From contig NZ_FSRK01000002.1 in assembly GCF_900141765.1 (NCBI RefSeq), positions 1 to 64,000 on the forward strand: DNA of 64,000 bases, in the 5' to 3' direction. Below the pieces are notes generated by a model that was given only the letters and a program-made list of their open reading frames with translations, ran no database searches and had not been told where the DNA came from. Origin of the DNA: Epilithonimonas zeae. Its GTDB lineage: Bacteria; Bacteroidota; Bacteroidia; Flavobacteriales; Weeksellaceae. The position numbers and the translations under genes were made by a program. The stretch's first letter is position 1. Each line of letters opens with the position of its first letter. Below are positions 3,696 through 52,006 of this stretch, in pieces.

Positions 3696-4856
3696 TTAAA
3701 ACTCATTATAGATATACTTCAAAATATCTTTATCCGTTTCGGTGATTGCGATTTTTCTGCGTTCCATTGCTTTTTCTGCAACTTCATAAGATTTTTCGAG
3801 TTTGAATTTCTCATCGCCTTTCATTCCGCCCCAAGAAAAACTATCAACTAAGTTTGGCGGAAAACCGGACTTGAAAATATTAGCCGCAACACCGACAACT
3901 GTTCCTGTATTCAACTGTGTATTGATTGCAGTTTTGGAATGGTCACCCATTATCAGTCCGCAAAATTGCAAACCCGTATCTAGGAATCTTTTCTTTCTGT
4001 AATTCCAAAGTTTTACGGAAGCGTAATTGTTTTTTAGGTTGGATGAATTGGTATCCGCTCCCAAATTACACCATTCTCCAATCACAGAATTACCAACAAA
4101 ACCGTCGTGACCTTTGTTTGTATATCCGAAAATCACAATATTATTAACTTCGCCACCTACTTTTGAATGTGGACCAATCGTCGTTCCGCCATAAAGTTTA
4201 GTTCCAAGATTAATTTTAGAATCTTCACAAAGCGCTAATGAGCCTCGGATATTGGAGCCTTCCATAATCTCAGCATTTTTTCCAATGTAGATTTTTCCGG
4301 TTTTGCAATTGAGTGTTGAGAATTCTATTACAGCACCTTCCTCTATGAAAAGATTTTCGCTGTCGCCGATGAAACCATTCGTGGATGACAATTCCTGAGA
4401 TGTTCTGCCTTCCGTCAATAATTTGAAATCATAATCGATGGCTTTATCATTATAAGAAAAGATGTCCGTTGGTTTCTCAATAAAAAACAGTTTTTCGTGA
4501 ATGTCTGTCATTTTATTGATTTGATTCAGAGAGAAATTCTCCATATTGATATTCGCAACCAAAACTTCGTTTTCATAAACCAAAGCTTCGCCAGGTTGCA
4601 ATTCCTTGATTTGTTTCAAAACCTCATCAGACGGGAAGAAATTCGGAACAATGAAAAGACTTTGCTTTGGTTCCGGTTTTTTGAATTTGTCCTGAAGATA
4701 ATTTTCTGTGATGTAGAAAACCTCATCAATACCAAGCAATTTTTTCCATCTTTCTGAAAAAGTAAGAATTCCCATTCGCATTTCTGCAACTGGTCTTGTA
4801 AAAGTGAGTGGAAGAAAATCTTCCCAATATTGTGCGTCTGAGAATACAAGTTGCAT
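3696..4856 (-). CDS. GlmU-family sugar-nucleotidyltransferase-like protein
   Basis: A 386-residue protein of the GlmU-like family (TIGR03991) of Bacteroidetes. The N-terminal half resembles a degenerate nucleotidyltransferase (FTRPVAEMRMGIL near residues 18-31), and residues about 165-330 form hexapeptide repeats of a left-handed beta-helix (IGKNAEIMEG, GTTIGPHSKVGG, GNSVIGEWCNLGADTN). It probably handles a sugar-1-phosphate in cell-envelope precursor metabolism, but the substrate is unknown. The classical GlmU signature LAAGxGTRM is absent at the N-terminus, which separates it from true GlmU. It is transcribed with its own TATTTTTG element (4947-4954), which overlaps the tail of the L31 terminator. 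Confidence 0.8.
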   Translation of the reverse strand: MQLVFSDAQYWEDFLPLTFTRPVAEMRMGILTFSERWKKLLGIDEVFYITENYLQDKFKKPEPKQSLFIVPNFFPSDEVLKQIKELQPGEALVYENEVLVANINMENFSLNQINKMTDIHEKLFFIEKPTDIFSYNDKAIDYDFKLLTEGRTSQELSSTNGFIGDSENLFIEEGAVIEFSTLNCKTGKIYIGKNAEIMEGSNIRGSLALCEDSKINLGTKLYGGTTIGPHSKVGGEVNNIVIFGYTNKGHDGFVGNSVIGEWCNLGADTNSSNLKNNYASVKLWNYRKKRFLDTGLQFCGLIMGDHSKTAINTQLNTGTVVGVAANIFKSGFPPNLVDSFSWGGMKGDEKFKLEKSYEVAEKAMERRKIAITETDKDILKYIYNEF

Positions 4857-4946
4857 TTTTTAGATATTAGATGTTAGACTTTAGATTTTAGACAAAAGTG
4901 TTGGAAATCTAATTCCTCACTTAAAAAGTCTAATTTCTATCTTCAG

Positions 4947-4954
4947 CAAAAATA
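4947..4954 (-). promoter_or_regulatory. -7 element before the GlmU-like gene
   Basis: TATTTTTG on the minus strand, directly after the T-run of the L31 terminator, so terminator and next promoter are packed together. Confidence 0.4.
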
Positions 4955-4955
4955 A

Positions 4956-4987
4956 TAAAAAAAGCCTCTCGGAAATCCGAAAGGCTT
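4956..4987 (-). terminator. Terminator of the L31 gene
   Basis: On the minus strand AAAGCCTTTCGGA pairs with TCCGAGAGGCTTT and is followed by a T-run and TATT. It is a standard intrinsic terminator 25 bases after the stop codon. Confidence 0.85.
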
Positions 4988-5012
4988 TGATATTTGTACA
5001 AATTGGCTAAGA

Positions 5013-5264
5013 TTATTTAGCGAATTTTTTGTATTTATTCATAAACTTATCAACTCTACCAGCAGTATCAACTAATTTAGTTTTACCTGTGTAGAAAGGG
5101 TGAGAAGTAGAAGAAATTTCCATTTTGATCAAAGGATATTCAGATCCTTCGAATTCGATAGTGTCTTTTGTGTCAGCAGTAGATTTGCAAAGGAACATCT
5201 CATCGTTGCTCATATCTTTGAAAACTACTAATCTATAATTTTCTGGGTGTATGCCTTGTTTCAT
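5013..5264 (-). CDS. rpmE2: 50S ribosomal protein L31 type B
   Basis: An 83-residue ribosomal protein of the long, zinc-free type B L31 form. It has [17 protein letters not shown] at the start and [20 protein letters not shown] in the middle, which are conserved in this family. The CxxC zinc pair of type A L31 is missing and only one Cys is present. It is a monocistronic minus-strand gene with a consensus promoter ahead and an intrinsic terminator behind. The length is normal. Confidence 0.97.
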
Positions 5265-5337
5265 TTTCAGAAGTTTTAAAATTTAATATAATATGAGCAG
5301 CGGACTAATGGATCCGACAACTCTGGTTTTGAGGATG

Positions 5338-5368
5338 CAAAAATAGGAATTATTTTTTATTCTGCAAA
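5338..5368 (-). promoter_or_regulatory. Promoter of rpmE2
   Basis: The minus strand carries TTTG (5365-5368), a 19-base spacer and TATTTTTG (5338-5345), a full consensus match. It gives a leader of roughly 65 bases before the L31 start codon. Confidence 0.8.
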
Positions 5369-5466
5369 TATTTATTCTGAAAATCAAAAAAATAATGCCA
5401 CTTTAAAAAGACATTAACTTATTTTATAATTTTTATCAATTTTATATCAATAAATAAATATTTGTA

Positions 5467-5497
5467 TTGCATCTATAAAATTCTTTATATACTTTTA
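5467..5497 (+). promoter_or_regulatory. Probable promoter of the 5525 gene
   Basis: TTG (5467-5469), a 20-base spacer and TACTTTTA (5490-5497), one mismatch from TAnnTTTG. The 5525 start lies 27 bases further on. Confidence 0.5.
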
Positions 5498-5524
5498 TCC
5501 CGAACTAAAATTATATAAAAACTT

Positions 5525-6277
5525 ATGGCAATCTTAACTCGTGAGAATTATACCACTGCTATTAAAAGCTGGGCAGAAGTAAAATCAAATTATTCTGAAA
5601 TCCAAAACGTACTTTCACCAGAACAGGTTTTTATCTTGACTCGTGAACAAATCGAATGGTTTGATAAGGAAAACGAAGAAGAAACTTATTTCCGTGCAGA
5701 TATTGGTGTTTGGGAAAATAAATTAGCTTTAATATTAACACCTAGAGACAGTGCTGGTGCTGTAAAAACTTTAGATAATTATGAATATGCACCTCTGCAA
5801 TTTCTTGAAAGTGATCTTACTCTAAAACAGACCAAAACTTATACTGTAACTAGTACCTATACTCTGACAAAGGACTTAAGTAAAGGCAAAGAAGATTCTG
5901 ACATCGATTTTCCTATTATGGACAAACCTGTAACAGGACAGCTCAAAGCCGTAGACGAAATAGAGTCATGGAAAGAAAATGCAATGGATTATCTGCAAAG
6001 AGAATCTCTGGAGTTCAAAGGACAAAGGATTTTCCAAAGTTTCTATATCCCAAAAGCAGACTTATTACATGATAAAGAAAAGATGCACGATGTTGTTTGT
6101 GTTTTTGGGTTTAAATATTCTGAAGTTTACCAGAGATTATTGGCTACAATAATTTTTGTCAGCAATGAATTGGGGGCAAAAATTGGAACTCCTGGAGCTG
6201 TGTATGCAGTACAATCTGATCCTTCTAACACTTATGATTGGGTAAAACCATGTCCACCAGCTTGTTTAGGAGCTTAG
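5525..6277 (+). CDS. Hypothetical protein, 250 aa
   Basis: A 250-residue soluble protein that I do not recognise. It has no signal peptide or membrane segment. The N-terminal part is helical and acidic (SWAEVKSNYSEIQNVLSPEQ), the middle has a Thr/Tyr-rich stretch (KTYTVTSTYTLTKDL, about 103-117), and the protein ends with a proline/cysteine tail WVKPCPPACLGA. It opens a plus-strand locus that continues with a 7-TM protein after an 11-base gap, a sensor kinase and a response regulator, so it may take part in that signalling unit or be a cargo of it. The Cys-Pro-Pro-Ala-Cys tail could bind a metal or form a disulfide, which is a guess. Confidence 0.7.
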   Translation: MAILTRENYTTAIKSWAEVKSNYSEIQNVLSPEQVFILTREQIEWFDKENEEETYFRADIGVWENKLALILTPRDSAGAVKTLDNYEYAPLQFLESDLTLKQTKTYTVTSTYTLTKDLSKGKEDSDIDFPIMDKPVTGQLKAVDEIESWKENAMDYLQRESLEFKGQRIFQSFYIPKADLLHDKEKMHDVVCVFGFKYSEVYQRLLATIIFVSNELGAKIGTPGAVYAVQSDPSNTYDWVKPCPPACLGA

Positions 6278-6287
6278 CTATAAAATA

Positions 6288-6911
6288 ATGACAGAGTATT
6301 ATTATATAAGCGTTGGAATAAGCTACCTACTACTTATTACGGCTATTATTCTTTCAATAATAAAATACAAACAAACAATTCAAAATGAAAAATGGTATAT
6401 TTATTATATCATTTTTGTTTTTTGTATTGAATTGCTTTCTGTAGTTCTTCCTTTTTTTAAAATTAAAAGTAATTTTTTTCTGTATCAAATCTATATAGCG
6501 GGAGAATTTTTTACTGTTACAGGTATTTTTATCAAAAAATTGAATCTAAGCAAATATTCTTTTGTATTAACAGGATTATTTAGTTTATTCTTTATAACAG
6601 CAGATAGAGTTCTTGGCCAATATCAATATAACAATGATTATTCAAAAGCTATATCAAATATAATGATGATTGTTTTGATAGGATATTCCTTAATTCAGGA
6701 TATTAGAAATTTAAAGAGTAAAAGTTCATTTCAAGTTATTGATAAGACATATTTTTTCTATTTTACTGTAAGTCTTTTTATATTTATTCTCCAACACCAA
6801 CTTATTGAATTCCCATTTGAATATTTCTCAGCCATTTGGATTATAAATAATTTGATGGTTTGTGTCCTTTATAGCTTATTCATTAAAACATTTTTACAAT
6901 TAAAGAAGTAA
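6288..6911 (+). CDS. Polytopic membrane protein, candidate sensor partner of the kinase
   Basis: A 207-residue protein made almost wholly of hydrophobic segments: about seven can be counted (residues about 6-24, 34-56, 65-84, 92-106, 120-137, 154-170 and 180-200). No enzymatic motif is visible. Its stop codon lies inside the likely 5' end of the next gene, a histidine kinase that has a membrane anchor but no sensory domain. This arrangement suggests that the two proteins form a split sensor in which this protein detects the stimulus in the membrane. It is very AT-rich, even by the local standard. The function is inferred only from context. Confidence 0.75.
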   Translation: MTEYYYISVGISYLLLITAIILSIIKYKQTIQNEKWYIYYIIFVFCIELLSVVLPFFKIKSNFFLYQIYIAGEFFTVTGIFIKKLNLSKYSFVLTGLFSLFFITADRVLGQYQYNNDYSKAISNIMMIVLIGYSLIQDIRNLKSKSSFQVIDKTYFFYFTVSLFIFILQHQLIEFPFEYFSAIWIINNLMVCVLYSLFIKTFLQLKK

Positions 6912-6949
6912 AACTCAATATCATTTTTCTTGTTGTACTGATTCTCGTT

Positions 6950-7657
6950 TTGATAATCATCATATCGTTTATGTTATTAGCTTACAAAAGCTTTATCCAA
7001 AGAATTATTCAGGAAAAAGATTTGCAGTTTGAAGCAGAGATGGAACATCAGAAAGAACTAACACTGGAAAATATAAAAGGCCAAGAAGATGAAAGAAAAA
7101 GAATAGCAGTTTCTGTTCACGATGATATTGGAAATCGTTTGAACATCCTTTCTCTTTGGCTCAATAACCTGGAACCGGAAAACCAAGAAGCATCCAAAAA
7201 AGTGATTACCTCACAGATTACAGAGCTGATAGATTCCACAAGAAATATTTCCCACTCACTTTATCCTGTGAATCTGGAAAAATTGGGACTTGTTTTGTAC
7301 TTACAGGAATTAGTTACCAATCTGTCTCATAACATTAATCTAATATTGAATATTGATTACAAGTACGAGAAGAAAGATAATTTCACAGAAGTTCAGATTT
7401 ACAGAGTCATTCAGGAATTTACAACCAATGTTATCAAACATTCTAACGCTGATGAAGTGATTGTTTATATTAGAAATCATGAAAAATATCTTACAATGAT
7501 TTTGTCTGATAACGGACAAAGTTTTGATTACACCAAAGCCAACAAAGGAATGGGACTTAAAAATATAGAATCCAGAATTACTTCTGTGAAAGGTTTTTAC
7601 AAATGGAAAAATACAATTGGAAAAGGAAGCCGTTTAATTATTAATATCCCTAATTAA
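6950..7657 (+). CDS. NarL-type sensor histidine kinase with atypical start
   Basis: A histidine kinase of the HisKA_3 plus HATPase_c type. An N-terminal hydrophobic segment is followed by a charged linker, then the phospho-acceptor region with EDERKRIAVSVHDDIGNRL (His57 counted from the TTG at 6950), and an ATPase domain with TTNVIKHSNADEV as N box, LSDNGQSF as G1 and KGMGLKNIESR as G2. There is no periplasmic or PAS sensor domain. The start is unclear: no ATG precedes the membrane segment, and the frame stays open back to 6887, encoding KLNIIFLVVLILVL, which belongs to the membrane anchor. Initiation at TTG 6950 would halve that anchor; CTG 6938 or ATT 6899 are alternatives. It is followed by its response regulator after six bases. 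Confidence 0.88.
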   Translation: MIIIISFMLLAYKSFIQRIIQEKDLQFEAEMEHQKELTLENIKGQEDERKRIAVSVHDDIGNRLNILSLWLNNLEPENQEASKKVITSQITELIDSTRNISHSLYPVNLEKLGLVLYLQELVTNLSHNINLILNIDYKYEKKDNFTEVQIYRVIQEFTTNVIKHSNADEVIVYIRNHEKYLTMILSDNGQSFDYTKANKGMGLKNIESRITSVKGFYKWKNTIGKGSRLIINIPN

Positions 7658-7663
7658 TCTAAA

Positions 7664-8344
7664 ATGAGTGAAAAAATCAAAATAGCGTTGGTTGATGATG
7701 AGCAACTGATTCTGGAAGGTGTGAAAATGCTGCTTTCTGCAAAAGAAAATATTTCCGTGGACTTTATGGCAACAAGTGGTGCAGAAATATTAGCCCATTT
7801 GGAAACGCTTGAAGCAGATAATTTTCCAGACATTGCGATGGTAGATGTTCAGATGCAGCCAATGGATGGTTTTGAGTTGGTAGAAATTTTGAAAAAAAAT
7901 TATCCCAATCTTAAAATCATTATTCTTTCTTCCCATTACAAAAGCAGCGTTCTAGGATACATGATAAAATTGGGCGTTTCAGCTTTTCTTCCAAAGAATT
8001 CCAGTAAAACGGTTTTTATAGAAGCTATAGAAGCTGTTAACAAGAACGGGATGTACTTCACAAAAGAAGATCATCAGATGTTAAGCACTTATCTGAATTC
8101 TCCTGCGCGGAAAAAATCGCTTTTCGATAACGAAGAAACATTAACTGCCCGAGAAATAGATGTGGTGAAACTAATTTGTCAGGAAAAAACCAACCAACAA
8201 ATTGCAGATACACTCTTCCTAAGTCCTAGGACAGTGGAAAGTCACCGCCAAAGAATTCTTGATAAAATTGGTGCGAAAAATACAGTCGGGATTGTTATTT
8301 ATGCGGTTGTCAACGACATCTATTCAGTTCCTATTAAACTTTAA
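7664..8344 (+). CDS. NarL/LuxR-family response regulator
   Basis: A 226-residue two-component regulator. The receiver domain (about 5-125) shows the acidic pocket DDEQ, the phospho-acceptor Asp61 in AMVDVQMQPMDGFEL and the conserved Lys in FLPKNSS. The C-terminal LuxR-type helix-turn-helix (about 155-215) has LTAREIDVVKLICQEKTNQQIA and LSPRTVESHRQRILDKIGA. It lies six bases after the kinase gene and is its clear partner. Downstream of it, two genes carry the same motif at the same distance from their promoters, which are good candidates for its binding sites. Confidence 0.94.
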   Translation: MSEKIKIALVDDEQLILEGVKMLLSAKENISVDFMATSGAEILAHLETLEADNFPDIAMVDVQMQPMDGFELVEILKKNYPNLKIIILSSHYKSSVLGYMIKLGVSAFLPKNSSKTVFIEAIEAVNKNGMYFTKEDHQMLSTYLNSPARKKSLFDNEETLTAREIDVVKLICQEKTNQQIADTLFLSPRTVESHRQRILDKIGAKNTVGIVIYAVVNDIYSVPIKL

Positions 8345-8353
8345 TTTAAAATT

Positions 8354-8399
8354 CAGTATTTCTACGCTATCCTAATTTTCATTTTTGTTCTTTCTTTGG
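8354..8399 (+). promoter_or_regulatory. Candidate operator and promoter of the 8440 gene
   Basis: CAGTATTTCTAC (8354-8365) is followed after 26 bases by the -7-like TTCTTTGG (8392-8399). The same 11-base core lies exactly 26 bases before a -7 element at the 8975 gene. The position, just upstream of the -33 region, fits an activator site. Confidence 0.55.
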
Positions 8400-8439
8400 C
8401 ATAAGAAAACGTTAAAACAAATTAATCAACATTCATCTT

Positions 8440-8787
8440 ATGTCTTCTCCTTTGGAAATAATAAATTCTACGGATTATATCATCTCAGGCGAGGTGTCTT
8501 ATATGACTGTTTTTTGCTCCAATCATTATTTTTTTGTGAAAGCACACAGCAATTGGAAATCAGAAAAACGCGGCATTTGTCCAATTATTGAGGTTTCTGC
8601 AACCGTAAGAACACCAAGAGGACTTTTTGCTGCCCAGCCATATATTTCTATCGGAACCACTCATAGTCTGTTTGAAGTTGTACAGATCAGAGAAAATGTT
8701 TTTAAAGTATTGAGAGTGAGAAATTCAACCATTGAAAAATCAGCAATCCTCGACATTTACAATCCAACGTTTTTGGAAAAAATTTAA
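8440..8787 (+). CDS. Hypothetical protein, 115 aa
   Basis: A 115-residue protein that I do not recognise. It has no signal peptide and appears beta-rich, with many Val/Ile/Tyr strands (DYIISGEVSYMTVFC, YFFVKAHSNW, IIEVSATVRTP, FKVLRVRNSTI). The start at 8440 was chosen because it follows the candidate promoter by about 40 bases and is the first ATG in frame. It is monocistronic, closed by a terminator, and shares its upstream motif with the tail-collar gene, so the two are probably co-regulated by the neighbouring two-component system. Confidence 0.65.
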   Translation: MSSPLEIINSTDYIISGEVSYMTVFCSNHYFFVKAHSNWKSEKRGICPIIEVSATVRTPRGLFAAQPYISIGTTHSLFEVVQIRENVFKVLRVRNSTIEKSAILDIYNPTFLEKI

Positions 8788-8810
8788 AACCAACCAATCC
8801 ATACTTTTTT

Positions 8811-8844
8811 AGTCTCATCAAAATTTTTGATGGGGCTTTTTTTT
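8811..8844 (+). terminator. Terminator after the 8440 gene
   Basis: AGTCTCATCAAAA pairs with TTTTTGATGGGGCT and is followed by eight T. Confidence 0.8.
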
Positions 8845-8863
8845 GACTGAAAAAATAATGTTC

Positions 8864-8933
8864 GTAGAAATACTGAATTTAGATTTTAGTATTTTCTACT
8901 CTATCTCTTTTCTCCTAACTATTGTTACTTTGG
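8864..8933 (+). promoter_or_regulatory. Candidate inverted-repeat operator and promoter of the 8975 gene
   Basis: GTAGAAATACTG (8864-8875) and AGTATTTTCTAC (8888-8899) form an inverted repeat. After 26 bases comes TACTTTGG (8926-8933), one mismatch from TAnnTTTG. The right arm matches the site in front of the 8440 gene with the same spacing, which points to a shared regulator. Confidence 0.6.
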
Positions 8934-8974
8934 AATATCAAAAAACAAAATATTAATTATAAAAACAATTTATT

Positions 8975-9508
8975 ATGGAAGAGTACATTGGAATCATCAA
9001 GTTATTTGCAGGTAATTTTGCACCTAGAGGTTTTCTGCTGTGTAATGGTCAGATATTAAACATACAGCAGTATACAGCACTGTTTTCAATTTTAGGTACG
9101 AACTATGGTGGTAATGGTCAAACAACGTTTGCACTTCCCGATCTGAGACAAAAATTTCCAATAGGTACTAATAATACAACAGGAATAGGAGTTATCGGAG
9201 GTAATAAAACAGTTACCATTGGGGCGCAGAATTTACCTAACCTTAGTCTAAACCTAAAAGTTAGTAATACAGATTCAACGGCATCAGTTCCTGCTTCCGA
9301 TAGTTTCTTATCCATACCAGGAACTGTTAGCGGAAGAGATTTTATCCCATCTCTAGGATTTTCTGATGCAGCTACTCCAAATCTTGTGACAATGAATCCT
9401 CAATCTGTTACTTTGAATTCCACTAATACACCGATTGATATTACACCACCATCCGTTGCGTTGAATTATATTATTTGCGTTGAAGGAATCTATCCATCCC
9501 GCCCTTAA
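8975..9508 (+). CDS. Phage tail-collar domain protein (microcystin-dependent-protein type)
   Basis: A 177-residue protein of the tail-collar family. The N-terminal region (about 1-60) has the characteristic IGIIKLFAGNFAPRGFLLCN followed by GQILNIQQYTALFSILGTNYGGNGQTTFALPDLRQKFPIG. The C-terminal part is Ser/Thr/Asn-rich and beta-structured. Such proteins are either phage tail-fibre parts or, as free genes, secreted or cytosolic microcystin-dependent-protein homologues of unknown role. No other phage gene is near. It lies at the end of the two-component locus with its own promoter, and a terminator follows. Confidence 0.85.
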   Translation: MEEYIGIIKLFAGNFAPRGFLLCNGQILNIQQYTALFSILGTNYGGNGQTTFALPDLRQKFPIGTNNTTGIGVIGGNKTVTIGAQNLPNLSLNLKVSNTDSTASVPASDSFLSIPGTVSGRDFIPSLGFSDAATPNLVTMNPQSVTLNSTNTPIDITPPSVALNYIICVEGIYPSRP

Positions 9509-9567
9509 AATAAATAAGAACTAATAATCGTGAGAGACTAATAAAACATTCTAGTTAGTAAGTTAAG

Positions 9568-9597
9568 ACCACTTTTCAAATTTGAAGAGTGGTTTTT
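9568..9597 (+). terminator. Terminator after the tail-collar gene
   Basis: ACCACTTTTCAAAT pairs with TTTGAAGAGTGGT and is followed by five T. Confidence 0.8.
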
Positions 9598-9609
9598 AAT
9601 TTAATATAC

Positions 9610-9617
9610 TATTTTTG
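9610..9617 (+). promoter_or_regulatory. -7 element of the first LRR gene
   Basis: TATTTTTG matches TAnnTTTG and lies 26 bases before the ATG at 9643. A properly spaced -33 TTTG is not present. Confidence 0.5.
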
Positions 9618-9642
9618 CGCAATAAAGAATAATAACCAACTT

Positions 9643-10761
9643 ATGAAGACTATCTTTACATTACTTGCTGTAATAATATCATTTACTATTTCTGCACAAA
9701 CCGTGAATATACCTGATGCTAATTTTAAGGCTTATCTTCTTAACAACCCTCAAATCAATACTAATAGTGATAATGAAATACAGGTTTCTGAAGCTAGCAC
9801 AGCCACGCACATAAGTTGCCATTCTAAAAATATTTCTAATTTATCGGGTATCGAATATTTTGTAAATCTCAAAGTTCTCGAATGTTATAATAATAATTTA
9901 TCTACCCTTAATATATCAAATCTTTCTAACTTAATAGAGTTTGATTGTAATAAAAATAAATTAACTTCTATTGATACAACACAAAACAAAAAGTTAAAAA
10001 ATTTCTCTTGTTCAAACAACTTTTTGACAAACATAGATGTTAGTGAAAATACATATTTAGAGTATTTTAGCTGCAATGGCAACCAAATCTCCGAATTAAA
10101 TGTTAACCAAAATATTTTACTTTACTATTTACATTGTAATTCAAATCTACTAACACAATTGGATCTCAGTTTAAATAGTCATTTATATTTTATACACATT
10201 GGAAATAATAAAGTCTCCAATATAGATTTTTCTCAAAATCAGAATTTGGGAGAGATTTATGCACAAGGTAATTTATTAACTAATGTAGATTTAAGTCAAA
10301 ACAAAAAATTGATGATTTTTAAAATTGATAATAATCTCCTTAGTAATCTTAATATAAAAAATGGCTTTAATACTCTAATCACTGCACCAGATGAAGAATG
10401 GAATTTCTTTAGTTCAGTTAATAATCCAGATTTAAAATGCATCCAAGTTGATAATGTCAATTATTCCACAAGCAATTGGCCAAACAAAGACAGCTGGGCA
10501 AATTATAGTACAAACTGTAGTCTAGGTGTAGATGATGTGAAAAAATTGACTATCCAAATTTATCCAAATCCTGTAAAAGACACATTCATCATCAATACCA
10601 ACGATAAAATAGAAACTATTGAAATCTATTCTCAGACAGGACAACTTTTGAAAACTTCAAAATCAAAAGAAGTCGATATTTCTAATTTGCCAAAAGGAAA
10701 CTATCTAGTGAAAATCAAGACTGATAAAGATAATATTACTCAGAAAATTATTAAAGAATAA
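9643..10761 (+). CDS. Leucine-rich-repeat protein with type IX secretion tail
   Basis: A protein of about 372 residues. A signal peptide (MKTIFTLLAVIISFTISAQ) is followed by a conserved cap (VNIPDANFKAYLLNNPQINT) and about eight leucine-rich repeats of roughly 21 residues with a Cys or aromatic in the same position (LxxLxCxxNxLxxLDxSxN), like the cysteine-ladder repeats of internalin J. The last 75 residues are a T9SS sorting domain type A (IQIYPNPVKDTF, then LPKGNYLVKIKTD, ending in IIKE). It is expected on the cell surface or secreted. The start at 9643 was preferred to an upstream in-frame one because it gives the signal peptide and follows the promoter. A paralogue lies at 23776. Confidence 0.9.
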   Translation: MKTIFTLLAVIISFTISAQTVNIPDANFKAYLLNNPQINTNSDNEIQVSEASTATHISCHSKNISNLSGIEYFVNLKVLECYNNNLSTLNISNLSNLIEFDCNKNKLTSIDTTQNKKLKNFSCSNNFLTNIDVSENTYLEYFSCNGNQISELNVNQNILLYYLHCNSNLLTQLDLSLNSHLYFIHIGNNKVSNIDFSQNQNLGEIYAQGNLLTNVDLSQNKKLMIFKIDNNLLSNLNIKNGFNTLITAPDEEWNFFSSVNNPDLKCIQVDNVNYSTSNWPNKDSWANYSTNCSLGVDDVKKLTIQIYPNPVKDTFIINTNDKIETIEIYSQTGQLLKTSKSKEVDISNLPKGNYLVKIKTDKDNITQKIIKE

Positions 10762-23775: not shown

Positions 23776-24906
23776 ATGAAGAAAACATTTGTTCTAACTT
23801 TAATTCTGGGAATTGCAAGTCTTATCAATGCTCAGATTGTCAATATTTCTGATGCTAATTTTAAAGCGTACTTGGTAGCAAATTCTGAAATCAATACAAA
23901 TGGAGATAGCCAAATACAAGTTTCGGAAGCTAATGCTTTCGCAGGCACGATTAATATTTATGATAAAGGCATTACCAACCTAACAGGAATAGAAGCATTT
24001 GTAAATATTACTGGTTTATCGTGTTATTCAGAATCAGGTAGTACGTTCCCAAACCAACTGACGAGTCTCGATATAAGTAAGAATACGAAATTAAAAACAT
24101 TATTGTGCTACGGCAACCTACTAACAAGTCTTGATGTAAGTAAAAACATAGATTTGATAACAATTTTTTGTTATGACAACCAACTTACAAATTTGGATGT
24201 AAGTAAAAATACTGAATTGTTACAATTATATTGCGGTAATAACCCATTAAAGACTTTGGATATTAGTAATAATTTAAAATTGATACAATTATATTGCTAT
24301 CAAAACCAACTAACAAGCTTAGATATAAGCAAAAATACAGCTTTAAAATATTTAAATTGCCAAATAAACCAATTGACAAATTTAAATATTAATAATATTA
24401 CCACATTAATGTATTTTTTTTGTTATGATAACCTATTGACAAGTTTGGATTTCAGTAAAAATACCAACTTACGTTGGCTTGAATGTTATAATAATAAATT
24501 GACAAATCTTATTCTGAAAAATGGGAATAATGAAAATCTGATATATATGTATAGTTATAATAACCCACAACTTAACTGTATAGAAGTTGATAATATTGCA
24601 AATGCCAGTTCTAATAGCGGTTGGCAAAAAGATGCAACAGCAAGTTATAACACAAACTGCATCTTAGCTGTAAACGATATTAATAAAATAGAAATTACAA
24701 TCTACCCTAATCCCGCAAAAGACATTCTCAATTTTTCACAAGATGTTTCAAATTTTAGAATTTCAGACCTTTCGGGAAAAGTTGTAAAACAAATTTCAAG
24801 TTCTGAAAAATCGATTAATGTATCAAAACTTGCAAAGGGCAATTACATTATATCTGGTAAAACAAAAACTGGGGAAACAATCAATAAGAAATTTATAAAA
24901 GAATAA
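23776..24906 (+). CDS. Leucine-rich-repeat protein with type IX secretion tail
   Basis: A 376-residue paralogue of the 9643 protein. It has a signal peptide (MKKTFVLTLILGIASLINAQ), the same cap (VNISDANFKAYLVANSEINT), then about eight leucine-rich repeats of 21 residues with a Cys at a fixed position (LTSLDISKNTKLKTLLCYGN and similar), and a T9SS type A sorting domain (EITIYPNPAKDILNF and KGNYIISGKTKTGE, ending KKFIKE). It is probably a surface or secreted binding protein. It is divergent from the fused E1 gene and shares the intergenic region with the TetR palindrome. A terminator follows. Confidence 0.9.
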   Translation: MKKTFVLTLILGIASLINAQIVNISDANFKAYLVANSEINTNGDSQIQVSEANAFAGTINIYDKGITNLTGIEAFVNITGLSCYSESGSTFPNQLTSLDISKNTKLKTLLCYGNLLTSLDVSKNIDLITIFCYDNQLTNLDVSKNTELLQLYCGNNPLKTLDISNNLKLIQLYCYQNQLTSLDISKNTALKYLNCQINQLTNLNINNITTLMYFFCYDNLLTSLDFSKNTNLRWLECYNNKLTNLILKNGNNENLIYMYSYNNPQLNCIEVDNIANASSNSGWQKDATASYNTNCILAVNDINKIEITIYPNPAKDILNFSQDVSNFRISDLSGKVVKQISSSEKSINVSKLAKGNYIISGKTKTGETINKKFIKE

Positions 24907-28047: not shown

Positions 28048-28719
28048 ATGAAACATCTCTTTTCTTTCTTCACAATAACATTATTCTCAGTTCTCCAATC
28101 TCAGGAACTGAAGGATTTCATTATTCCAAAACGTTACGAGAAAATCTTGGAAACAAAAGGCGATCTGGACAAAGACGGAAAAGATGAAACAGTAATTATT
28201 TCCAATACTGATAAGATAATTAATACCATATCCAAAGGGCTTGAAAGAAAGTTATACATCTTAAAAAACATCAATGGTAAATTAAAAGTTTGGCAAGAGA
28301 ATTCTAATCTGCTCTTCGATAGTAAAGAAGGATTTTATCCAGAAAGCAATGAATTGGAATTGAGTATTAAAAATAATTGCCTAATCATTTTTCAATCTTA
28401 TTTTTCAAATTCTAGACATACTGTGACTTCAAAAAACACTTATAGATTCCAAAACGGTGATTTTTATCTGATTGGTGCTTTGGTTAAATTTGATGACACC
28501 TGCGAATTTAATTTCTCCAACGAAATCAATTTTTCAACTGGTAAAGTTATTATCGATGACCAATATTCTGAATGTGACAGCGGATACGAAAGAGAAGTTC
28601 CTAAAAATTACTATAAAGAATTCATTTACAAAATTCCCAAACTCATAAAAATGAGCGACTATAAAATGGGGAAAAATGAAATCAAAATTCCTAATTCAAA
28701 AAAATCATTTAACTTCTAA
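28048..28719 (+). CDS. Hypothetical secreted protein
   Basis: A 223-residue protein with a signal peptide (MKHLFSFFTITLFSVLQSQ). A DLDKDGKDETVIIS segment (about 40-53) is an Asp-rich Ca-binding loop as in FG-GAP/VCBS-type repeats. The rest is beta-rich with no further motif. It starts at the base following the aroA stop codon and stops one base before the SDR gene, so it is in the aroA operon. The function is unknown. Confidence 0.75.
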   Translation: MKHLFSFFTITLFSVLQSQELKDFIIPKRYEKILETKGDLDKDGKDETVIISNTDKIINTISKGLERKLYILKNINGKLKVWQENSNLLFDSKEGFYPESNELELSIKNNCLIIFQSYFSNSRHTVTSKNTYRFQNGDFYLIGALVKFDDTCEFNFSNEINFSTGKVIIDDQYSECDSGYEREVPKNYYKEFIYKIPKLIKMSDYKMGKNEIKIPNSKKSFNF

Positions 28720-47465: not shown

Positions 47466-47473
47466 CAAATTTA
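47466..47473 (-). promoter_or_regulatory. -7 element of serS
   Basis: TAAATTTG on the minus strand matches TAnnTTTG and overlaps the stop codon of the upstream lipoprotein gene. Confidence 0.4.
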
Positions 47474-48004
47474 AGGATTTTCTTTGATGATTTCCACAAC
47501 ATTTCTCTGTCCTGGAACCTTAGTGAATTTTAATTCATTATTATACCAAAGTTTTGATATCTGAAAGAGCGAAGGTGTCCAGCTATATTCAATTCTTATA
47601 GTATCCACTCTATAATCAATATCAGTAACCTCGTCGACAACTTTAGAATAACGAATTAGAAAATTGGAATAATATATTTTTTCTTCTGGATTAGAGGTAA
47701 CTTCATCCTTCAATAGTCGGATAGCACCTGCTGGATAATCCATATAAACTACAGTATCTGCATCTTTCGGGAAAGTTTGTCCGGTAATGGGTTTATTAGC
47801 AGTAGTTTCGTCTAAGAGATCCAATAAAGTAACAGCAGAATAAGAACCATCAATTTTTGAGTTTAACAAATCTTGTCCATTAGTCGCGCTTTTAACATAA
47901 AGCATCAGAACCTGATCGATGACTTGTACATCATCTTCGTTATCTCCTCTGCAAGACAATAACAAAACAACTGCTGTTAAAATTATGGATATTCTTAGTT
48001 TCAT
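47471..48004 (-). CDS. Hypothetical lipoprotein of the glycan cassette
   Basis: A 177-residue lipoprotein with lipobox LLLSC (Cys18). No recognised domain is seen; the mature part is acidic and beta-rich. It lies after three surface-glycan genes, 18 bases past the Asn-synthase-like gene. A TATCTTTG element (48010-48017) on the minus strand ends five bases before its start codon, so it may be made also from a leaderless mRNA of its own. Confidence 0.75.
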   Translation of the reverse strand: MKLRISIILTAVVLLLSCRGDNEDDVQVIDQVLMLYVKSATNGQDLLNSKIDGSYSAVTLLDLLDETTANKPITGQTFPKDADTVVYMDYPAGAIRLLKDEVTSNPEEKIYYSNFLIRYSKVVDEVTDIDYRVDTIRIEYSWTPSLFQISKLWYNNELKFTKVPGQRNVVEIIKENP

Positions 48005-48009
48005 CTTTG

Positions 48010-48017
48010 CAAAGATA
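48010..48017 (-). promoter_or_regulatory. -7 element directly before the 48004 start
   Basis: TATCTTTG on the minus strand; the ATG at 48004 follows after five bases. A matching -33 is not seen. Confidence 0.45.
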
Positions 48018-48022
48018 GAATA

Positions 48023-49624
48023 TTAATACTTATATTTTTCCTGAATATACTCTATATACCAAGCACAAATTACTGCATTATAGGTTTTGAAATTTGTAAA
48101 TTCTTTTTTCCTTTTGGTTTCCAAATAGCTTTTCATGTTTTTAGTCAACTTTTGATAATAAGGCCAATCTGCATTATTCATTCTCTTCAAAACCATCTTC
48201 CAAGGAAAAAAATATCTAATAGAATCTTTTATTTTCTGAAGAAAAAATTGGAATCCGGAAACACTAAGTTCTTTTTTGTCAAAACTTATATTCTGAGGTT
48301 GGAAAAAGTACTTTTCTAAAACGTAATCATAAAGCTTTTTATTTTCACGGAATTCAAAAGGAACTTTTCTGTAAAACTCAACCAATTCTTTGTCCCAAAG
48401 AGGAAAATAAGTTTCGAAACCAAAATATAAAAATACCTGAGATGAGTGGAAAATAAATTTTGCTAATTTTTCCTGAATATCCCATTCTTCAACAGACATA
48501 TTAAAATCACCGGAGAAATATGATTTTGCAATTGGATCTAAACTTTGCTGAAGTCTTTGTTGAATTTGATGTTTTCTTTTATTATTCTTTTGAGTGAAAA
48601 TAAAATATTTGGATTCTATAAAAGCTGGAAGATTATGAAAATCAATATTATTTTTCACGGTTTTCTTCATATAACTTCCGCCCAAAAAATCGCCAGAATG
48701 TCCTGGTAAAAAAACAGAATTTTCAGGAATTAAATTTTTATTTTTAAGCTCAATCACTGCAAAATATTCCATCAAATAAGGCATTGAATAGCCATTTGCT
48801 GCAAAATCCAAATAATCTCGAAATGATTGATCTGACTGGATTTTTTCAATATCAATCTCAGTGAAATTTATAAAATGCCAATCATAGCCTAACTCTTCTG
48901 CTACTTTTCTACTAATTGGAACTTCCGGATTATCTTTTCCGTAAGTAAAACAAATTACTTTTTCATAATTCATTTTCTTCAATAAACTGACAATTAAGCG
49001 AGAATCATAACCGCCACTAAGAGGAACAACAGCAGTTCTTCCATTTAGAAATGATACTAATTTCTCTGCAACCTGCATTAAAACCTGTTCTGAATCTACT
49101 GCTAAATCTTCAAATGATTTTTCGAAGAAAGAATCAGTTATAAAGTTTTTGTATTGTGTTGCTTTTCGCTCAAGACTAGAGATTTTTAGAATTTGATTAG
49201 CGTTTGTTTTATAAATGTTTTTATCCAAAGTTTCATTAGACAAAACGAACCCAGCCGTTTCATATTCATCAACCGCAGGCTTATTGAAATCAAATGCATT
49301 TGTAAGATTCAAAATAGCTTCCCAATAATCTGAGATTACTATTCGATTTTTATTAATTTTATAGAAAAGAGGAAAAAAATTAACCGCATCGCTTACAAGA
49401 TAATAGTCGTTTTCAGAAACAACAATGAATGAAAACAGACCATTAACTTTTTTACAAATCTGTTCCAGAGAAACTGTTTGCAATTCTTTACTGATATAAT
49501 CAACAGCTTCTTGATTACGATAAAGATTGTGATTTTCATCAAAAAAATAACCTATGAAAGATAGGTTCTCATTTTGAATCCAAGAATAGGTATCATTACC
49601 TTTTAATAGAAGTTTAACTTCCAT
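48023..49624 (-). CDS. Asparagine-synthase-like protein without glutaminase Cys
   Basis: A 533-residue protein of the asparagine synthase B-like family. Residues about 190-480 form the synthase domain with the ATP-binding PLSGGYDSRL motif. The N-terminal part keeps the class II glutamine amidotransferase fold (SLEQICKKVNGLFSFIVVS) but residue 2 is Glu, not the catalytic Cys, so glutamine cleavage is not expected. It may adenylate a carboxylate on a surface sugar or lipid. It overlaps the next upstream flippase gene by 11 bases. Confidence 0.88.
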   Translation of the reverse strand: MEVKLLLKGNDTYSWIQNENLSFIGYFFDENHNLYRNQEAVDYISKELQTVSLEQICKKVNGLFSFIVVSENDYYLVSDAVNFFPLFYKINKNRIVISDYWEAILNLTNAFDFNKPAVDEYETAGFVLSNETLDKNIYKTNANQILKISSLERKATQYKNFITDSFFEKSFEDLAVDSEQVLMQVAEKLVSFLNGRTAVVPLSGGYDSRLIVSLLKKMNYEKVICFTYGKDNPEVPISRKVAEELGYDWHFINFTEIDIEKIQSDQSFRDYLDFAANGYSMPYLMEYFAVIELKNKNLIPENSVFLPGHSGDFLGGSYMKKTVKNNIDFHNLPAFIESKYFIFTQKNNKRKHQIQQRLQQSLDPIAKSYFSGDFNMSVEEWDIQEKLAKFIFHSSQVFLYFGFETYFPLWDKELVEFYRKVPFEFRENKKLYDYVLEKYFFQPQNISFDKKELSVSGFQFFLQKIKDSIRYFFPWKMVLKRMNNADWPYYQKLTKNMKSYLETKRKKEFTNFKTYNAVICAWYIEYIQEKYKY

Positions 49625-50882
49625 TCTTTTGTTTGTTTTTAATTTTATGTAAAATTAGTTTTATTTCTGACCTCGAAAATACAAAATCATTGATACTAAA
49701 GTGCGTCAATTGATAAAAATTCCAAAGTAAAATAATTGATGAAACACAATACGAAAGGGAAGTTACAATACAAACTCCTAAAATTCCTAATCTTGGAATA
49801 AGAAAAACAGAAGTGATAATTGTAACTATAAAACCTATAAATGATTTGATATTTAGAATTTTCAATTTGTTGATTCCGGCAAAATAGAACCCAACAATAT
49901 TGCTGACTGCAATCGCCAAAATCCCCGGTGATAAAACTAAAATGATCAGTTTGGTCTGTGAAAAATCTTTTCCAAAAATCCAAGTATAAAATTGAGCAGG
50001 TAAAAGCAAGACAACGCCAATAAATAAAGCTGTTGTTATGAAACTGATTTTGACCGATAGTTTTGTTTTGAGAATTAATCCTTCTTTATTCTCATCATTC
50101 AAAGCCTCCGAATATAAAACAAGTGCAAGACTTCTGCTGACTGTCCAAATAGCTTCAGAAAATGCAACACCCACAGAAAAAACACCGACACTAGCAATAC
50201 CTTTATAGTATTCTAAAAAATAAAATGAGACTCTATTATTAAGAAATTGTACAAATGCACTTAGTTGTGTTTTCCAACCATAGTTGAATAAATGAGTTAC
50301 TACTTCTTTTTCAAAAGAGATATTCCTTATGCTGCATCTTTTTAGAAGTCCTACAGAGCTTATCAAGAACAAAATTACAAAACAAAAAATCTGAGCCAAA
50401 AAGTAAGACTCGACGGTCATTATTTTCAGAAAAAATATAATCGCGAAAATAAAAACAATGTGGACCAACAACTGTAAAATGGCGTATAAATTATACAACC
50501 TAACTTCCTGTTTGCCAATAAAAAAATTAACATTAGCAGCCAATAATGACGAAAAAACAGAAAGTGGAATAAGATAGAGAAGATAATCTTGTTGATGGAA
50601 TAAACTAACAAGTAACGGAACGGATATACCTACCAATACAGACCAAATATAGGCATATCCTAAAAGCTTTTCTATTTTGTATTTGGATGCAAAATATGAC
50701 ACGCTACTTCCCGCAAAAATATTGCTAAAAAACACAACAATAGCAAGGTCCAAAGTCACAATAGAGATAGTTCCCTTCCCTTCGCTGCCCCACATATTGG
50801 TAGAAAAAATAATCAATCCGAAATTCAATATCAGCATCAAAAATCGGGAAACAAATGTTTCTGCTACTGCTTTATACTTCAC
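49614..50882 (-). CDS. Polysaccharide flippase (Wzx-like)
   Basis: A 422-residue membrane protein of the polysaccharide biosynthesis/MATE-like flippase family with about 12 hydrophobic segments (for example FLMLILNFGLIIFSTNMWG near the start, then WSVLVGISVPLLVSLF, and GIASVGVFSVGVAFSEAIW). It would move a lipid-linked sugar unit over the inner membrane. It overlaps the glycosyltransferase gene by four bases and the Asn-synthase-like gene by 11, so the three are one operon. Confidence 0.9.
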   Translation of the reverse strand: MKYKAVAETFVSRFLMLILNFGLIIFSTNMWGSEGKGTISIVTLDLAIVVFFSNIFAGSSVSYFASKYKIEKLLGYAYIWSVLVGISVPLLVSLFHQQDYLLYLIPLSVFSSLLAANVNFFIGKQEVRLYNLYAILQLLVHIVFIFAIIFFLKIMTVESYFLAQIFCFVILFLISSVGLLKRCSIRNISFEKEVVTHLFNYGWKTQLSAFVQFLNNRVSFYFLEYYKGIASVGVFSVGVAFSEAIWTVSRSLALVLYSEALNDENKEGLILKTKLSVKISFITTALFIGVVLLLPAQFYTWIFGKDFSQTKLIILVLSPGILAIAVSNIVGFYFAGINKLKILNIKSFIGFIVTIITSVFLIPRLGILGVCIVTSLSYCVSSIILLWNFYQLTHFSINDFVFSRSEIKLILHKIKNKQKNGS

Positions 50883-52006
50883 TTTTCAGATTGTTTTACA
50901 AAATCTACAAATGTTTGCTTAATTAGATTCCAATTGTATTTTTTTTCATAACTGGCTCTCGCATTTTTAGCGTGCTTGTCATAAAGACTCGGTTTCTCAG
51001 TATAATTTATAATCAAATCCGCAATTAATTCTGAGTTTTCAGGCTCAACCAAATATCCGAATTTTGAAACATCTATATGGTTTCTAATCGCTTTCAAATT
51101 GGTATAAATAACCGGCTTACCAGACGCAGCATAATAAAACAATTTGATTGGCAAAGAGTTGTTGTACTCAAAGTTTTTTTCTCTCAAATCAAAACAGATA
51201 TCTGCCTCAGAATACGAGCTTGTGAATGTTTCAAAACTTGTAGGTTTTACAATAGAGATATTTTCCCAAGCATATTTTTCTAAAAGTTGATTGAAATGTT
51301 TGGCATCAGAATCTCTTTTAGGTGCTCCAACAATTAAAATGGATATTTCTAAATCTGGCTTTCTTTTTCGTACTAAATCTATCGCTTTAAAAAAATTATC
51401 TATTCCATCTTCTTTAGAAATTCTTCCCGTGCAACAAAGCGTAATTTTATTTTTTGCAATTTGTTTGATATTCTTTTCAATGTAGATATCATCCGGATAA
51501 TAAGCCTGTGTTAGATTCTTTTTGAATGGAAACAAATACATCAAAGGGAATTTTTTAGAATCTTCCCCAAAAATAAAATGTGTACTCAGAAATCCTGCAT
51601 ACATCTGAATCAGAAAAAACTTAATCAGATGAAAAGGTTTCAATAGCCACGAATAGGGTTGTAACATTCTGAATGACGGATACCATTCTGTAATATCATA
51701 AATGATACTTGTTTTTTTTATTTTTTGGAATTTTCCCGCTGCAATAATAGCCAATGGCTCCGAACAAATAATGACATCTGGTTGAAAGTCGTTACAAATT
51801 TTAAGCAATATATCTTTTTTTTGCTTTGCTGATTGTTCTAAGATTGAATATGATTCGATTTCAATTCCATCAATAATGCCTTTGTAACCAGAAGACAAAC
51901 TGCAAATTTTCACCTCAAAACCCTTCTTTACAAGTTCTACTGCCTGATGATAAAAAATACGATCATCATTATATCTGTGTGCAGTTGTCAGGAAAAGAAC
52001 TTTCAA
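50879..52006 (-). CDS. Glycosyltransferase family 4 protein
   Basis: A 375-residue GT-B glycosyltransferase. The N-terminal domain has LFLTTAHRYNDDRIFYHQA, and the C-terminal domain has LCCTGRISKEDGIDNFFKA and KLFYYAASGKPVIYT with the E-x7-E-like site degenerate. It transfers a sugar to a surface-glycan precursor; donor and acceptor are not known. It is the first gene of the glycan cassette and overlaps the flippase gene by four bases. Confidence 0.92.
   Translation of the reverse strand: MKVLFLTTAHRYNDDRIFYHQAVELVKKGFEVKICSLSSGYKGIIDGIEIESYSILEQSAKQKKDILLKICNDFQPDVIICSEPLAIIAAGKFQKIKKTSIIYDITEWYPSFRMLQPYSWLLKPFHLIKFFLIQMYAGFLSTHFIFGEDSKKFPLMYLFPFKKNLTQAYYPDDIYIEKNIKQIAKNKITLCCTGRISKEDGIDNFFKAIDLVRKRKPDLEISILIVGAPKRDSDAKHFNQLLEKYAWENISIVKPTSFETFTSSYSEADICFDLREKNFEYNNSLPIKLFYYAASGKPVIYTNLKAIRNHIDVSKFGYLVEPENSELIADLIINYTEKPSLYDKHAKNARASYEKKYNWNLIKQTFVDFVKQSEK

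Follow-up and report, generated by a model that had tools for sequence, protein, structure and literature searches.

Organization of the locus

We analyzed a stretch of 64,000 nucleotides (nt) of the soil-type bacterium Epilithonimonas zeae (positions 1 to 64,000 of contig NZ_FSRK01000002.1; hereafter, the window), in which a signalling locus at 5525-9508 comprises genes for a 250-amino-acid (aa) protein (U250), a protein with seven transmembrane (TM) segments (TM7), a histidine kinase (HK), a response regulator (RR) and two candidate outputs (U115 and COL). Between the window and its nearest relative, the Epilithonimonas genome G008, which was used for DNA and protein comparison, the putative receptor TM7 and the tip of its neighbour U250 are divergent between near-constant flanks, which resembles the pattern known from peptide-based self-recognition systems. 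The features of the locus are as follows.

5525-6277, plus strand: U250, 250 aa, conserved body and variable C-terminal tail, no family matched; proposed ligand precursor
6227-6241, plus strand: codons of the NTYDW motif, just 5' of the tail codons; 93 of the 94 sequences conform to NT(Y/F)D(W/Y/F)
6251-6274, plus strand: codons of the variable tail, CPPACLGA in the window; 62 tail types among 94 sequences
6250-6875, plus strand: polymorphic block, 65-78% nt identity to G008, 87-99% in the stretches around it
6288-6911, plus strand: TM7, 207 aa, seven TM segments, proposed receptor
6899-6911, plus strand: 13-nt overlap ATTAAAGAAGTAA, proposed ATT start of HK and stop of TM7
6899-7657, plus strand: HK, histidine kinase of the short NarL type with a single membrane anchor (H-box VSVHDDIGNRL); proposed to start at 6899, possibly at 6950
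7664-8344, plus strand: RR, 226 aa, NarL/GerE-type response regulator
8356-8398, plus strand: regulator box GTATTTCTACGCTA, 25 nt and TTTG, 5' of U115
8440-8787, plus strand: U115, 115 aa, no family matched, proposed output
8864-8873, plus strand: inverted half-site GTAGAAATAC, 5' of the COL box
8889-8932, plus strand: regulator box GTATTTTCTACTCTA, 25 nt and TTTG, 5' of COL
8975-9508, plus strand: COL, 177 aa, leaderless phage-tail-collar protein (Collar domain), proposed output

No Pfam or NCBIfam family was matched above cut-off by U250, TM7 or U115, and no usable relative of U250 or TM7 was found in Pfam, NCBIfam, PHROGs or Protein Data Bank (PDB) sequence searches. In the PDB, U250 best matched a bromodomain protein (E 0.045), which was judged to be due to chance. 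Averaged over an alignment (L096 and L177 excluded), TM7 displayed seven hydrophobic segments, and its charges were compatible with an N-out, C-in topology; residues 91-120, the most variable in Chryseobacterium, would then include an outer loop. HK matched HATPase_c above the cut-off and HisKA_3 just under it (21.6 vs 24 bits, E 0.0003). By eye, HK has a single hydrophobic stretch, at its N-terminus, and the family searches revealed no sensor domain; RR consists of Response_reg and GerE domains. An earlier note on this DNA had described a 7-TM protein without enzyme motifs, a NarL-type kinase with a membrane anchor but no sensor domain, a response regulator behind it and a tail-collar protein, and these four descriptions were borne out.

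A divergent block spans the U250 tail and TM7

Within 5000-9700, identity to G008 (per 100 nt) drops only in a block that begins within the last codons of U250 and stops some 12 codons short of the end of TM7. For the same pair, synonymous (dS) and nonsynonymous (dN) divergence reached 1.78 and 0.22 in TM7, compared with 0.30 and 0.005 in HK. Because its silent divergence is so high, the divergence of TM7 suggests replacement by a distinct, old allele rather than rapid evolution of the resident gene. At the protein level, TM7 was 67.8% identical to its G008 homologue, the fifth lowest value among the 53 window proteins with a match (of 55 compared), 41 of which exceeded 92%. Other pairs of genomes differed in the same way, with TM7 and HK identities of 48% vs 96% (G129-G095) and 54% vs 98% (G095-G078).

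Conservation of a four-gene unit

All 93 distinct complete loci, most of them from Epilithonimonas and Chryseobacterium, had the order U250-TM7-HK-RR. The scan of named genomes yielded 105 relatives, 80 of which were kept; their titles were Epilithonimonas, Chryseobacterium or, for a few, just Weeksellaceae or Flavobacteriaceae (those in genus g1 are mostly titled Epilithonimonas, some Chryseobacterium sp.). Among 120 loci examined, L088 and L091 lacked U250 and L098 lacked all four genes; the 117 complete loci were reduced to 93 by dropping identical copies. The collinearity that the earlier note had proposed to look for across Flavobacteriia is therefore present in these relatives, and orthologues of the kinase occur beside the 7-TM gene rather than always without it. 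At the family level (197 genomes, 33 genera), TM7 was detected in 63 genomes from two genera and was accompanied by U250 in 61 of them; at the order level (296 genomes, 90 genera), U250 was detected in 33 genomes from two genera.

The conserved unit consists of these four genes, because their neighbourhoods differ between the two genera. In Epilithonimonas, an 83-aa gene, which we take to be rpmE2, lies upstream and, in most loci, U115 lies downstream. On the Chryseobacterium side, a 205-221-aa gene (DUF5715 in the single case tested) lies upstream, and the Tle1-like lipase signature FDGTG was found downstream, beside RR, in 74 of 79 loci (Pfam-tested in one). In the window, the 83-aa gene and a presumed enoyl-CoA hydratase-like gene enclose U250, TM7, HK, RR, U115, COL and a leucine-rich repeat (LRR) protein with a type IX secretion system (T9SS) sorting domain.

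In Chryseobacterium sp. FH1 (L083), a second U250 (~32% identical) with its own tail, EPPYRPGGGGFD, is located between an intact TM7 and HK, and a leftover TM7 end adjoins HK beside it. This arrangement is as expected from a cassette exchange. The second U250 of FH1 excepted, no extra gene on the operon strand was found among the four genes in the loci inspected for neighbours.

Covariation of the U250 tail with TM7

The C-terminus of U250 consists of a conserved NTYDWxxPxPP motif followed by a variable tail of 3-13 residues. Among the 94 sequences (15 Epilithonimonas-side and 79 Chryseobacterium-side), tails starting with CPPxC were found in 77 of the 79 and 4 of the 15, respectively; other tails include YPPYTTSPGG, EPPYNP and VPPYIPG. 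Two pairs of genomes with identical tails had similar TM7 proteins (G037-G144, 90%; G054-G111, 96%). In partial Mantel tests given the U250 body, HK and RR, tail and TM7 were associated overall (r = 0.25, p = 0.001) and within Epilithonimonas (n = 15, r = 0.29, p = 0.009) and Chryseobacterium (n = 79, r = 0.45, p = 0.001); these sets contain fragments of the broken G119 genes, and the tests leave kinship partly in. The association of the tail with the whole HK was not significant in such tests (p 0.07-0.43). Simple linkage decay is disfavoured, because in Chryseobacterium the TM7 residues closest to the tail (1-30) correlated less with it (0.22) than residues 31-120 (about 0.40). Meanwhile, TM7 was associated with the membrane anchor of HK in Chryseobacterium (partial r 0.66) and not significantly in Epilithonimonas (0.12, p 0.19).

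U250, which had been treated in the earlier note as an unexplained bystander, thus does not fit that role, being present with TM7 in nearly all TM7-positive genomes and covarying with it through the tail. For the same two reasons, the signal is probably self-made, not environmental.

Overlap of TM7 and HK and the start of the kinase

A kinase frame begun at the ATT at 6899 overlaps the TM7 stop codon (6909-6911). This ATT was kept in 91 of the 93 distinct loci, across two genera, and in 90 took the form ATTAAAGAA(A/G)TAA. There was no NTG at or before the TM7 stop in 73 of the 91, whereas 18 had one further upstream in frame; an NTG 5-9 codons past the stop was present in 36 of the 93, and the first NTG in the kinase frame of the window is the TTG at 6950. 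An NTG in place of the ATT would always give TGA in the TM7 frame and truncate TM7. The A preceding TT is retained despite variation of the TM7 codon at this place, which favours a start at ATT and makes a fusion of TM7 and HK by -1 frameshift less likely. Moreover, synonymous changes of Thr and Leu codons right past the TM7 stop (by eye, 10 loci) indicate that the kinase frame seems to be under protein-level constraint upstream of 6950, so that initiation at this TTG is also less likely. The simplest reading is an ATT start that would couple translation of the kinase to that of TM7; it stays a proposal because of the loci with an upstream NTG and those with an NTG shortly after the stop. The overlap of the 7-TM gene with the 5' end of the kinase, as described in the earlier note, accordingly holds for the reading frames and extends to the genes only if HK starts at 6899.

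The regulator box and the probable output genes

The box GTA(T)TTTCTAC(G/T)CTA, followed after exactly 25 nt by TTTG, lies ahead of both U115 and COL, with TTTCTAC(G/T)CTA at 8359 and 8893, which agrees with the matching upstream motifs reported previously. A strict pattern with a 12-32-nt gap occurred three times genome-wide, the third time within a reading frame of 287 aa that by eye resembles ExbB/TolQ. Across relatives, a box was found within 300 nt 3' of RR in 82 of the 93 loci. The same box and 25-nt spacing precede both U115 and COL-type genes, the latter located elsewhere on the chromosome in Chryseobacterium.

In 20 Chryseobacterium stretches, the boxes preceded COL genes (six), an uncharacterised protein of 133-138 aa (five) and another of 219-220 aa (two), as well as single targets, namely U115, a CrtC-lipocalin protein, FAD amine oxidases, an uncharacterised protein of 550 aa, a 275-aa protein (T9SS-tagged in a close relative, in L286), an ABC-F-like gene (by eye) and a Tle1-like lipase; in two of the stretches (L299 and L300), no convincing gene was found behind the box. 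Because the stretches were chosen for their promoter-like look, this list is no unbiased census. Three uncharacterised families stand behind the Chryseobacterium box, at L285 344-757, L290 3051-3707 and L302 2012-3661, with no signal peptide by eye. In L083 and L094, an LRR gene lies 3' of a regulator box.

With a relaxed pattern, 23 Epilithonimonas genomes gave 32 raw matches vs 54 for the reversed-pattern control, and thus no excess over the control. The signal in this genus is positional: 21 of the 32 matches fell within about 1.3 kb after RR, and a match was present in 15 of 16 TM7-positive genomes compared with 1 of 7 TM7-negative genomes. In 30 Chryseobacterium genomes, the relaxed pattern matched 115 times vs 38 for the control, although some recurring matches look like coding sequence. 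The TM7-positive Chryseobacterium G450 had no match, and two Chryseobacterium genomes without TM7 (G465 and G466) had none ending in the usual GTTNNTTTG form. An inverted half-site was found at 72 of 109 box sites. Because it coincides with a terminator-like hairpin 3' of RR in Chryseobacterium and is missing ahead of the U115 box, it may lie outside the site of the regulator.

Relatives of COL (E ≤ 1e-40) were found in 39 of the 197 genomes, all 39 of which have TM7 (Fisher p 6e-25, inflated by shared ancestry), and a close relative is missing in 21 of 23 Epilithonimonas genomes. Three further COL genes of the E. zeae genome lie in a row on contig C1. We considered COL as a prophage remnant tied to the locus and rejected this idea: it is leaderless, and its relatives lie elsewhere in Chryseobacterium chromosomes, behind the same box in the six cases fetched.

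Judging from the sequences, RR very likely controls U115 and COL. This regulon assignment is well supported, because the box is shared by the outputs and recurs before tail-collar and Tle1-like lipase genes in Chryseobacterium. The switching of two output genes by the regulator, as put forward in the earlier note, is thus upheld as far as the box and its spacing are concerned, whereas the outputs linked to the locus vary and are not a fixed pair, as the Tle1-like lipase beside RR in Chryseobacterium illustrates.

A proposed split sensor and its possible ligand

The gene order, the tail/TM7 block, the tail-TM7 covariation, the TM7-HK overlap and the box in two genera form the basis for reading the locus as a two-component system with a split sensor, composed of TM7 and a separate HK. 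We give about an even chance to this reading with the U250 tail as the most likely ligand. In such a system, the tail, alone or on U250, would be displayed outside the producing cell and bind TM7, which would act on HK via the HK membrane anchor; HK would phosphorylate RR, and RR would bind the GTA(T)TTTCTAC(G/T)CTA box and activate U115 and COL in the window strain; in Chryseobacterium, its targets would be COL, the Tle1-like lipase and further leaderless proteins. Communication groups, comparable to ComX pherotypes, would then correspond to the different tail/TM7 alleles. The full proposal of a peptide-pheromone system with exchangeable pherotypes, in which a 250-aa carrier bears the self-made signal at its tip, a GPCR-like 7-TM protein on its own serves as the receptor, a separate, probably ATT-started kinase as its partner and a small set of leaderless effector-like proteins as the output, is advanced tentatively, at somewhat less than an even chance. 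The compact module with the 7-TM protein as the sensor that the earlier note had pictured survives in so far as 7-TM protein, kinase and regulator form one unit and TM7 follows the HK anchor in Chryseobacterium; this link is not seen in Epilithonimonas, and U250 had been left out of the module.

Several observations weigh against the U250 tail as a signal. Regarding the block, other window genes are as divergent from G008 as TM7. DNA identity is also low at 4800-5000 (73-74%) and in the core of the LRR gene (9700-10500, 51-78%), and TM7 is not the sole divergent gene, since protein identities at or below 82% were also found for two LRR-T9SS proteins, for members of a polysaccharide-type cluster, for a 223-aa protein and for one with a weak pectate-lyase-like match. 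Regarding the covariation, E. mollis (G138) shares the tail of G054 and G111, although its TM7 is just 51% identical, and only one of seven TM7 segments was associated with the tail at p < 0.05 in Epilithonimonas (n = 15). In addition, the C-terminal part of the U250 body, which lies close to the tail, follows it in both genera (0.30 and 0.28), as does the HK anchor in Chryseobacterium (0.34; not significant in Epilithonimonas); linkage could be a part-cause of this, and shared ancestry is incompletely removed by the Mantel tests. Moreover, the tail is not outstanding in Chryseobacterium, where mean identity is lower in the N-terminal part of the U250 body (50%) than in TM7 (57%) and the tail, with a mean similarity by score of 58%, is no more variable than these two. 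The picture of a constant body and a variable tail therefore holds best in Epilithonimonas.

Further difficulties concern the path of the signal. No signal peptide is visible by eye in U250, and no recognised peptidase, modifying enzyme or exporter was found between or directly beside the four genes. None of the 93 loci had a box in the 300 nt ahead of U250, and there is thus no sign of positive feedback. Finally, G132 has an intact TM7 and no U250. The lack of a visible signal peptide, exporter or box, the TM7 of G132 and the size of the conserved U250 body (about 235 residues, unusually large for a mere leader) favour an alternative in which TM7 senses an environmental cue and its alleles are exchanged as habitat ligands differ, with U250 serving as an accessory cytoplasmic or membrane-associated modulator whose tail docks TM7 from inside, which would account for the covariation. 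We consider this unlikely; it leaves unexplained why a short tail right after a conserved motif covaries with TM7.

U250 might also be a polymorphic bacteriocin-like protein and TM7 the matching immunity protein in the membrane, the two forming a co-inherited cassette under the neighbouring HK and RR. The tip of a toxin and the adjacent immunity gene typically vary together, and the cassette scar in FH1, the TM7 of G132 as a would-be orphan immunity gene and the Tle1-like lipase among the outputs would all suit such a pair. However, a tail of 3-13 residues and the lack of any match of U250 in Pfam, NCBIfam or PHROGs speak against it, and the overlap with the HK frame and, in Chryseobacterium, the covariation with the HK anchor make TM7 look more like a sensor, so that we regard this explanation as improbable. 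Equally improbable is an escape of TM7 from phages or predators that use it, with the tail varying as the edge of the exchanged block: other surface-type window genes (LRR-T9SS, glycosyltransferase cluster) are divergent too and the C-terminal part of the U250 body also follows the tail, but the drop in identity begins at the tail, directly after the conserved motif, and the TM7 segment nearest the tail is not the best correlated in Chryseobacterium.

Comparison with known signalling systems

In the ComQXPA system of Bacillus, which comprises the ComX pheromone, the ComP sensor kinase and the NarL-type regulator ComA, a polymorphic block between conserved flanks takes in both the signal gene and that of the membrane sensor. 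The locus of E. zeae shares a block over the proposed signal gene and membrane sensor between conserved flanks, clearest in Epilithonimonas, and a NarL-type RR. It differs in that an 83-aa gene (Epilithonimonas) or a 205-221-aa gene (Chryseobacterium), and no ComQ, lies upstream of U250, the proposed precursor is a 250-aa protein instead of the product of a short peptide gene, the receptor TM region and the kinase are in two genes with a proposed 13-nt overlap, and the host is a Gram-negative member of Bacteroidota. The identity of the block to G008 is near the 65-70% nt identity reported for comQ groups in a Bacillus study (PMC4408185), which also describes pherotype-specific peptide signalling.

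The agr (AgrBDCA) and HPK10 systems combine a multi-TM receptor with a variable peptide end and co-diversification of the two, as proposed here. Unlike agr, the four genes include no AgrB-type processing gene in the loci inspected, the regulator is of the GerE instead of the LytTR type, the kinase is of the HisKA_3 type and the receptor is split. Overall, by analogy, the locus resembles ComQXP and agr pherotype loci and is a member of neither, having no ComQ, no AgrB, a split sensor and unrelated U250 and TM7 proteins.

Regarding the single components, TM7 recalls the 7-TM signalling part of 7TMR-DISM (PF07695), to which 3 of 51 TM7 members had weak matches (best E 0.0027), although the window TM7 had none at E ≤ 0.1. 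7TMR-DISM receptors typically have an extracellular DISM domain, for which the 207-aa TM7 has no space, and TM7 has no enzyme fusion. Two TM7 relatives are annotated as "YhhN-like protein"; YhhN, presumably PF07947, was not among the families matched by the 51 members at E ≤ 0.1. The best NCBIfam matches of HK were MctS, UhpB and LiaS, likewise short membrane-anchored HisKA_3 kinases with a GerE regulator, and LiaS acts with a partner membrane protein. However, these matches were far below the family cut-offs, and HK is paired with a 7-TM protein whose family is lineage-specific and whose alleles diverge.

We know of no comparable locus in Bacteroidota, and our literature searches found no description of one. 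A review lists peptides as the signals of Gram-positive bacteria and acyl-homoserine lactones, AI-2, DPO and pyrazinones as those of Gram-negative bacteria, and notes homologues of proteins of the Nis and CiaHR peptide systems in Bacteroidetes (PMC8895600). If the proposal is true, two common environmental genera would have kin-type communication groups, and the 62 tails would provide a natural series for receptor-ligand tests, together with a predicted regulon.

Other divergent genes in the window

The LRR-T9SS protein at 9643-10761 is 51-78% identical to G008 in its core (about 9700-10500) and about 98% at both ends. The sole match of the second LRR-T9SS protein (23776-24906) in the compared stretch is at the place of this first LRR gene (35%). 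In the polysaccharide-type cluster at 47471-52006 (asparagine synthase-like, weak Polysacc_synt and glycosyltransferase), the members are 62-76% identical to G008, except for one that is unmatched. The 223-aa protein encoded at 28048-28719 belongs to no Pfam family and is 69% identical to its G008 counterpart, compared with 93-95% for its neighbours.

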